A stretch of DNA of 35,925 bases, from contig CAJOGA010000019.1 of assembly GCA_905233855.1 (NCBI GenBank), forward strand, positions 1 to 35,925, written 5' to 3'. Origin of the DNA: an uncultured Clostridia bacterium. Lineage in GTDB: Bacteria > Bacillota > Clostridia > UBA1381 > CAJOGA01. The notes under the pieces were generated by a model. That model did not search any database and was not told the origin of the DNA. It saw only the letters and a list, made by a program, of their open reading frames with translations. Position 1 is the first letter of the stretch. Each line of letters opens with the position of its first letter. Positions 33,209-35,572 of the stretch are shown here, in pieces. Made by a program: the position numbers and the translations under genes.

Positions 33209-33895
33209 TTACTTTGATGACGCAGATATAATGTATTCTAAAATTTTTCTGCCTTCATCATACCGTTGCTGATTATCCTGTTTATTCTCGTTATAACGCA
33301 CGTTACGCATTGTGATAAACATATCATCGGTCGGAATATTATATTTTTCAAGCAACGTGTTGCCTTTCATGCTTATAGCACGCACAACGCCTTCATTATC
33401 ACGCACAAGCATGCCTTCGTCAAAGCCTGCGGCGTATTCGTCGAGCGATATCAGCATTTCCGCTCCGTCATCACGGCTTATAAGGTTCGGCAGCTGCTTT
33501 TGCGTCATAATAAACACATGCGACAACCCTGCCGCAAATTCAGCCGATACGCGTTCCTGCATAGACGACACATTTGCCGAAACATTCTTCCCCGTTTCAA
33601 GATCCGCAACCAGCAGCCGTAAAAAGGTTACGGCATGTTTGCCGTCGCCGTTCAGATCCTCCGTAATGAGCGACAATTCATCTTCAAGGCCGGAAACATC
33701 ATAGTCAGCCGGATAGATGTAGTTGACATAAGCAACGGTAACATCGGGCGATACGTTTGCCGCACAGTTCGACACGGCAAAAACTATCAGCAGTAATGCG
33801 GCAACGCCTATAATAGTATGCCATTTATAATAGTCCCAAAAATAGCCCCACCACGCAGGTGTGAACATTTTAGGCACTTCTCCGTATTTCTCCAT
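33209..33895 (-). CDS. Single-span membrane-anchored protein of unknown function
   Basis: 228 residues with a short cytoplasmic lead containing FTPAWWGYFWDYYKWHT, a hydrophobic span (about 27-45) and an extracytoplasmic domain of about 180 residues. I recall the aromatic FWDYYKW lead before one span from many unannotated clostridial proteins, but no function. The exterior part has the alternating strand/helix pattern of a small binding-protein-like fold, with no cysteine bridge or catalytic motif. An internal ATG (33868) is an alternative start; neither has an ideal ribosome site. It has a good upstream promoter and a GC-rich 5' UTR hairpin, and it precedes serC by 46 bp. Confidence 0.75.
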   Translation of the reverse strand: MEKYGEVPKMFTPAWWGYFWDYYKWHTIIGVAALLLIVFAVSNCAANVSPDVTVAYVNYIYPADYDVSGLEDELSLITEDLNGDGKHAVTFLRLLVADLETGKNVSANVSSMQERVSAEFAAGLSHVFIMTQKQLPNLISRDDGAEMLISLDEYAAGFDEGMLVRDNEGVVRAISMKGNTLLEKYNIPTDDMFITMRNVRYNENKQDNQQRYDEGRKILEYIISASSK

Positions 33896-34281
33896 TATAA
33901 AACAAACACCGCCTTAAATGAAAACAGCATATTCAAGTGCGGCAAACCGCCTGATTTGTGCTGTCCGCACATTTTGTCCAAACCCCAAATTATGCCATTA
34001 TCAAATTTCATTATACAACACAAGAATCAGACCGTCAAGCAATTTTATTATTATTCTATGTAATTATAAGCAGACAGCCAAAAAAAGCGTGATGAATTGG
34101 TTAAATTGAATAACTGATACAAAAAAATTATCTATAGCTCTTCTTTCGTGATATTCTTTCTTAATGCTTTTAATCAACGCAATCAAATTTTCGAAAAGGA
34201 TTATAACAATCAAAATCTTTTTGAGATTTTGGCAAAAATTCAATCCACAGAAAATCGGGTTATAGGTAAAATTAAATTAAC
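33896..34281. other. Intergenic region between the membrane-anchored gene and the OLE-like RNA
   Basis: About 385 bp without an open frame. The left part holds the 5' UTR of the minus-strand gene with two mutually exclusive stems, GTGCGG/CCGCAC (33937-33942 / 33965-33970) and GCGG-CAAA-CCGC (33939-33950). The promoter lies at 34010-34038. The rest (34040-34280) is AT-rich and I see nothing specific in it. Confidence 0.6.
34010..34038 (-). promoter_or_regulatory. Putative sigma-A promoter of the 33895 gene
   Basis: Minus strand: TTGACG (34033-34038), 17 bp, consensus TATAAT (34010-34015). The transcript would have a leader of about 110 nt. Confidence 0.7.
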
Positions 34282-34310
34282 TTTACAAACTTAAAAGGGT
34301 ATGATAAAAT
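34282..34310 (+). promoter_or_regulatory. Putative sigma-A promoter of the OLE-like RNA
   Basis: TTTACA (34282-34287), 17 bp, TAAAAT (34305-34310). The start point would be near 34317, a few bases before the closing stem of the RNA, which supports an independently transcribed RNA. Confidence 0.65.
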
Positions 34311-34322
34311 CAAGGCGTAAAT

Positions 34323-34932
34323 GTGGTGCAGTATTCTAGTCTGTTCTGCTGTTTCCCAAGACGGGCCTAAAAATCCGTTAAAGGGCACATCGATGAAGTT
34401 CCTGGTGCTTTGCTTTGAACGCCCAGTTCGGGGCGGGTGCTGGGAGTTAAGGTTTAGGGGCTGTATGCAATGGCATGCAACTACAGTACCCCTCTTCCGT
34501 GGAGACCTATGACTGTGGTGTGGGTTTTTGCCCGTGCATATGCGCGGCAATAAACATTACGGCTTAGGATAAAACCTGCTATGCGGTGCGTTTTTTTGTG
34601 CTGTGAGCAGCGTAGCCTGCCTTGAGTGTGTATGGCGGATAAACGAACCATCCCTTGACGCATTGGCCGATGCCGATTTGGAATCGCGTTTTGAAACCAT
34701 GCTTGCAAAAGAGGCTAAGAAACAGCGTGACTGTTTGGGAAAACCTCTAGACTGTCGTGTAAACCGGTTTGCAAGGGATTGCAGTACGGACTAAGTGGCA
34801 CTCCGGTAATGTGTGCGGCAACGCATGCGTAGCATCCTTTAATGGGAAACCGCTTTTTCGGCGACGATTAAGCAGGATGTTGGGAAAGCCAACCGGACCT
34901 TAAGCCGTAAAATTTACCTTGCAAACCACCAC
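34323..34932 (+). ncRNA. ole: Large structured non-coding RNA, probable OLE RNA
   Basis: About 610 nt between the promoter and the membrane-protein gene lack a convincing reading frame but are rich in secondary structure. GTGGTG (34323-34328) can pair with CACCAC (34927-34932), closing the whole molecule. Long-range helices include TAGTCTGT (34337-34344) with ACGGACTA (34786-34793, one G-U pair) and TTAAGGT (34447-34453) with ACCTTAA (34897-34903). Local hairpins include AGGGGCTGTA/TACAG-TA-CCCCT (34456-34493) and TGCG-GCAA-CGCA with a GNRA loop (34814-34825). Size, autonomy and position directly before an OapA-like gene match OLE (ornate, large, extremophilic) RNA, which forms a membrane ribonucleoprotein linked to Mg, cold and alcohol stress. 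Other large RNAs (ROOL, GOLLD) do not have this neighbour. Confidence 0.8.
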
Positions 34933-34987
34933 TTTTATTATGATTATATTATTACGCTTTTTTACGTAATTCTGGAGTGATATATAT

Positions 34988-35572
34988 TTGGGCAGGTCAA
35001 AGAAAAGTTTCCGTCCCGGTATGCCGTACAAAAATATTCAGTCGAACGTTAAGTGGTCGCTGTTTATAATTGTGCTTACCTTTGTCATCTCGGTTATAAT
35101 GAGCGTTACGGCGTCAACGGTTATGGCAAAGACACATATCTCGGTTGCGTTTGCCGTATTGCTTACAGTTATTGTAACGGGCATACTGTTCGACATGATA
35201 GGCATTGCGGTAACGACCGCAACGGAGGTATCGTTTCACTCGCTGTCGGCACGCAGGGTGTCAGGCGCAAAGGAAAGCGTCAGAATAATACGTCTTGCAC
35301 CGCAGGTGTCAAGCTTTTGCAACGACGTTATAGGCGATGTGGCAGGTATAGTGAGCGGTGCGTCGGTAAGCGTTATTGTTGTGGAAATGGTCAATACATT
35401 CGGGCTTAAAAGCTCTGCTCTGCCAAGCCTTGTTTTAACAGGACTGGCAGCGGCAATGACAGTCGGCGGCAAATCGTTTGCCAAAGGTGTTGCCATGCTG
35501 CACGCAAACGACATTGTGTTTGCTGTGGGAAAGATATTTTATTTTACGAAAAAAATATTGCACATTAAATAA
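34988..35572 (+). CDS. oapA: OLE-associated membrane protein OapA-like
   Basis: TTG start behind GGAGTG; 194 residues (about 20-21 kDa), as known for OapA. A basic N terminus (MGRSKKSFRPGMPYKN) suits RNA contact. There are hydrophobic spans at about 23-43 and 52-76, and more near 117-137 and 146-168. Between them, a conserved-looking loop reads FHSLSARRVSGAKESVRIIR, and FCNDVIGDVAGIVSG contains the D113-x-x-x-D117 motif that I recall as a hallmark of OapA. OapA binds OLE RNA and tethers it to the membrane. It begins 56 bp after the RNA and is likely on the same transcript. The family call depends on the RNA and the protein supporting each other. Confidence 0.82.
   Translation: MGRSKKSFRPGMPYKNIQSNVKWSLFIIVLTFVISVIMSVTASTVMAKTHISVAFAVLLTVIVTGILFDMIGIAVTTATEVSFHSLSARRVSGAKESVRIIRLAPQVSSFCNDVIGDVAGIVSGASVSVIVVEMVNTFGLKSSALPSLVLTGLAAAMTVGGKSFAKGVAMLHANDIVFAVGKIFYFTKKILHIK

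Follow-up and report, generated by a model that had tools for sequence, protein, structure and literature searches.

A full-length OLE RNA gene next to oapA in an uncultured Clostridia bacterium

Analysis of a 35,925-nt stretch of DNA from an uncultured Clostridia bacterium (here called the window) revealed a gene for OLE RNA followed by the gene for its protein partner, OapA. OLE is a known large bacterial RNA that acts at the cell membrane. It is among the largest structured bacterial RNAs that lack a known biochemical function. Taken as a whole, with a cellular role drawn by analogy, the locus is almost certainly a complete ole-oapA gene pair. A sequence-only reading of the window had proposed an OLE RNA-OapA locus; the proposal was confirmed as real and correctly read, and the locus is a further example of a known system. 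The same reading had emphasized the presence of OLE in a clostridium that does not look like an extremophile. OLE is indeed present, but this is not new, because OLE has been reported in 2,822 Bacillota genomes, including the gut clades TANB77 and RF39 (PMC11332333). The locus adds a full-length OLE, with its three established partners encoded, in a small-genome and probably host-associated lineage. The features are listed in the table.

Table. Features of the ole-oapA locus (positions in the window)
Feature	Position	Strand	Basis
Candidate ole promoter: TTTACA, 17-nt spacer, TAAAAT, TG extension before the -10 element	34282..34310	+	Consensus scan
OLE RNA gene (ole), full-length type	34307..34948	+	RF01071; covariation, 33 homologues
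P4 A-rich loop	34363..34376	+	Sequence; dimer contact in published OLE models
P5 region, expected OapC site	34389..34452	+	k-turn strands in sequence
P12.2 and P13 hairpins, expected OapB site	34816..34866	+	Sequence; helices 19 and 21 of the covariation analysis
oapA, 194-aa membrane protein with a TTG start, basic at both termini, D113/D117 motif	34988..35572	+	tblastn and alignment

The Rfam OLE model RF01071 was matched end to end (model positions 1 to 616) with 469.5 bits and an E-value of 6.5e-135, the gathering score being 50. OLE was the sole Rfam match within the 36-kb window, and the Rfam search found a single OLE in the genome. The conserved core, GTGGTGCAGTATTCTAGTC, begins at 34323. 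The 3' end is conserved as well, as ACCACCACTTTT at 34925-34936. Given these two positions, the 610-nt RNA previously placed at 34323-34932 is a fair estimate of the transcript, which likely spans about 34323-34935. The terminal helix and the long-range helices described earlier are present, as are two GNRA-capped hairpins, P12.2 with GCAA (34816-34823) and P13 with GCGA (34859-34866). The k-turn strands of P5, ATCGATGAAGTTCC (34389-34402) and GGAGTTAAGG (34443-34452), are mostly invariant in an alignment of 33 OLE sequences (alignment A1). The P5 k-turn is the OapC site on OLE, and P12.2/P13 is the OapB site (PMC9723947); the A-rich loop of P4 forms the dimer contact in cryo-EM models of OLE (PMC12265935). 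The window RNA thus resembles RF01071 in all main helices, the k-turn strands, both GNRA loops, the P4 loop and a GGCC in the P9 loop, and it differs from the model in a longer arm with a 19-nt insert at about 34531-34549.

Alignment A1 comprised the window copy, 24 relatives from the same order and 8 further Bacillota contigs, which include Bacillaceae, Paenibacillus and Thermotalea. The Rfam structure was carried onto this MAFFT alignment, which is based on sequence and not fitted to structure. Two-sided changes were found at 109 of the 157 pairs. Standard pairs occupied 86.8% of the cells compared to 72.6% in shuffles, none of 500 shuffles being as high, and pairing fell to 40-46% when the partners were slid by 1-3 columns. 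Helices 10-13 in the distal portion of the long arm (about 34640-34690) were weak; this portion varies in both sequence and length, and its alignment is poor. In the window, P6 has ACCCCTCTTCCG as its 3' strand (34486-34497); many relatives of the same order have ACCCCTTTTCCG there. In H. halodurans, P6 carries a CCUCCU anti-Shine-Dalgarno mimic to which bS21 binds (PMC12054373), whereas the window P6 does not contain a perfect copy of this mimic.

The RNA had been described as promoter driven. A promoter-like site with 10 of 12 consensus matches ends 12 nt before the conserved start of the RNA and is therefore well placed, but the scanned region held 8 such sites compared to 4.6 (sd 2.1) expected in shuffled sequence. 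With a match near chance level, weak on its own, it is mainly the position that argues for this candidate promoter. The end of the RNA is separated from the oapA open reading frame by 55 nt, and no terminator was predicted between OLE and oapA.

The adjacent 194-aa protein has the basic N terminus and the D-x-x-x-D motif noted before. It shares 40-50% identity with the oapA products of other Bacillota, which establishes the OapA homology, and each of the 16 loci scanned in other Bacillota had OLE directly upstream of oapA. The motif D113-x-x-x-D117 (DVIGD) was invariant in 108 of 108 aligned loci, some of them duplicates. In H. halodurans OapA, the exchanges D100A/D104A constitute the PM1 mutant, which has severe stress phenotypes (PMC9723947); judged by the motif, D113 and D117 of the window protein would be equivalent to D100 and D104. 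The window protein and OapA of H. halodurans are both four-helix membrane proteins encoded adjacent to ole, with basic residues and the invariant DVIGD and GGKxxxK motifs. The window protein differs in its TTG start, although many relatives also have a TTG start behind a Shine-Dalgarno-like sequence. The gene is present in a single copy in the genome. In the gene tree, the window OapA grouped with other families of the same order (support 87/75), so the tree gave no sign of recent transfer of oapA from outside the order.

Single-protein scans of Pfam and NCBIfam gave no name for the window OapA. Because PDB searches with its sequence and its profile found nothing, a fold search was used. The AlphaFold model (pLDDT 86.6) contained four long helices (residues 21-48, 51-77, 104-138 and 144-171), and its six best PDB fold matches were all CNNM/CorC membrane domains (best E 0.023, probability 1.00). 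The predicted structure resembles these domains, with matches that are weak by E-value. PF01595 was weakly matched by 17 of 20 OapA members (best E 1.5e-5), while the window OapA alone gave no Pfam match to CNNM. Similarity of OapA to CNNM has already been published (PMC11332333). The modeled OapA is thus similar to the CNNM membrane domain (PF01595) of the Mg2+ transporters MpfA/CorC, but in contrast to MpfA (CNNM, CBS and CorC domains), it is too short to hold CBS and CorC domains.

Genes for OapB and OapC, which the sequence-only reading had suggested seeking, were found elsewhere in the genome. OapB, a YbzG/KOW-type protein, is encoded by a 95-aa open reading frame between map and infA (L116:15800-16087) and matched OLE-associated protein B (PDB entry 7k9b) in phmmer with E 1.2e-13. 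The KOW Pfam model missed it in the genome search and picked up only an L24-like protein at the rplX position. OapC, an L7Ae-type k-turn protein related to YbxF, has 81 aa, lies immediately before rpsL-rpsG-fusA-tuf and matched the YbxF structures 4lck and 3v7e with E 1.2e-15. Between nusA and infB lies the gene for a second L7Ae-type protein, which its position marks as YlxQ-like.

The window OLE is an ordinary full-length member of the family, with three established partners encoded in the genome. Reduced OLE variants are known from TANB77 (variant 1) and RF39 (variant 2) (PMC11332333), which are, like the host of the window, small-genome and probably host-associated Bacillota. The window RNA, in contrast to these variants, still has P7-P9 together with the OapB site, and the genome encodes both OapB and OapC, which places the RNA in the full-length type. 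Assignment to variant 1, with shortened P7-P9 and loss of the P13 OapB site, was rejected because the full model was matched and the P13 GCGA hairpin is present. A separate observation concerns genus g7, in which little of the P12.2 hairpin (A1 columns 653-679), half of the published OapB site, is left in the OLE RNAs (L018, L020, L021, L023 and L024). The genomes of this genus still encode OapB, which may bind P13 alone or serve other RNAs.

Upstream of ole and divergent from it lie genes for a 228-aa protein, SerC-like and SerA-like proteins and a GH95-type glycosidase. The 228-aa protein (33209-33895, minus strand) has a single hydrophobic stretch, close to its N terminus, and no Pfam or NCBIfam match. 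The location beside serine biosynthesis genes pointed out earlier is correct, but it is not conserved: the 228-aa protein, SerC and SerA occurred at none of 109 other loci, those of the order being represented with only about 1.5 kb of flank, and serine biosynthesis was ruled out as a conserved ole partner within these flanks. Isoprenoid neighbors, also described as missing, are absent on the upstream side, the only side on which they could be judged because just 353 nt of the contig remain beyond oapA. An ispA-like gene lies near ole in family f2 of the order and at most Bacillaceae loci. As family f2 has retained ispA next to ole, the missing isoprenoid neighbors are best read from gene order as a local rearrangement. 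In one relative, G001, an intact OLE (498 bits; L131:1544-2200 on G001:C6) follows an ispA-like gene and another gene for a small membrane protein. Its neighborhood has no oapA, which is located on another contig (L132:998-1633 on G001:C21), both OLE and oapA being well inside their contigs. The two genes can therefore be unlinked.

It is highly improbable that the window holds a decayed copy with a recognizable structure and lost function. Its score is somewhat below those of the best relatives of the order (up to 513.9 bits), and defective OLE genes exist in nature (PMC11332333), but many full-length relatives score lower still (about 410-450 bits). Moreover, the match runs end to end with conserved core nucleotides and compensatory changes, oapA and the partner genes are intact, and no CNNM back-up was detected. 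An equally small probability is given to a long structured, riboswitch-like leader at the 5' end of the oapA mRNA, whose action would be confined to oapA in cis. The position of OLE directly before oapA without a predicted terminator would fit such a leader. The arrangement in G001, where OLE stands beside ispA and apart from oapA, argues against it, as does the OLE of H. halodurans, an abundant RNA that forms a ribonucleoprotein with several proteins (PMC12265935). A protein-coding region misread as RNA can be practically dismissed. A 92-aa open reading frame on the minus strand (34272-34550) covers the 5' part of OLE and is probably due to chance. The plus-strand frames of the window OLE copy are broken, with longest open runs of 46, 33 and 73 codons, and many indels among OLE relatives are not divisible by three. 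These features indicate that the region is non-coding, as claimed from the outset, and together with conservation that follows base pairs they refute the coding interpretation.

For the ole-oapA gene pair, the RNA, its structure and the genes for OapA, OapB and OapC were established, with no detectable CNNM/MpfA in the genome. A transcript started at the candidate promoter would yield an OLE RNA of about 610 nt, and OapA would be made by read-through or processing. By analogy with H. halodurans, the RNA would dimerize and be held at the membrane by OapA, while two further proteins would help it to fold, OapC acting on the P5 k-turn and OapB on P12.2/P13. The particle would then let the cell cope with high Mg2+, cold and alcohols. 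Membrane localization, complex formation and the stress role are thus carried over from other species.

A PF01595 search of the genome carrying the window, a 93-contig draft that is 97.65% complete, gave no match to CNNM/MpfA, the magnesium-exporter family that as a rule takes the place of OLE; its absence could reflect an assembly gap. Anticorrelation of OLE and MpfA across Bacillota has been published (PMC11332333). Among 61 genomes of the order, with MpfA-type CNNM called at E below 1e-20, 33 (including the window genome) had OLE only, 24 had CNNM only, 4 had both and none had neither. OLE was present in 37 of these genomes and OapA in 35, never without OLE; the two genomes with OLE but without OapA (G031 and G041) have OLE matches that adjoin contig ends. 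CNNM was found in 24/24 OLE-negative compared to 4/37 OLE-positive genomes (Fisher p 3e-13; family f2 alone, 2e-4; family f4 alone, 3e-7), the p values taking no account of phylogenetic relatedness and being inflated by shared ancestry. A second sample, restricted to order genomes at least 90% complete and mostly overlapping the first, contained 16 genomes with OLE only, 16 with CNNM only, 4 with both and 1 with neither (G062, 91% complete). Here, CNNM occurred in 4/20 OLE-positive compared to 16/17 OLE-negative genomes (Fisher p 7e-6, likewise inflated by relatedness).

What these counts add is the sharpness of the known anticorrelation inside one order and even one genus. Tentatively, and with somewhat more doubt than confidence, the OLE-OapA particle and MpfA-type exporters might serve one and the same need interchangeably within the order and have been swapped repeatedly, even within a genus, so that the window genome would rely on the RNA device alone for Mg2+ homeostasis. 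Genus g2 is mixed, with OLE only in, e.g., G001, G010, G013 and G017 and CNNM only in, e.g., G015, G027 and G039. The near-clean split, extending into this genus, offers close natural comparisons for asking whether OLE-OapA replaces an Mg exporter.
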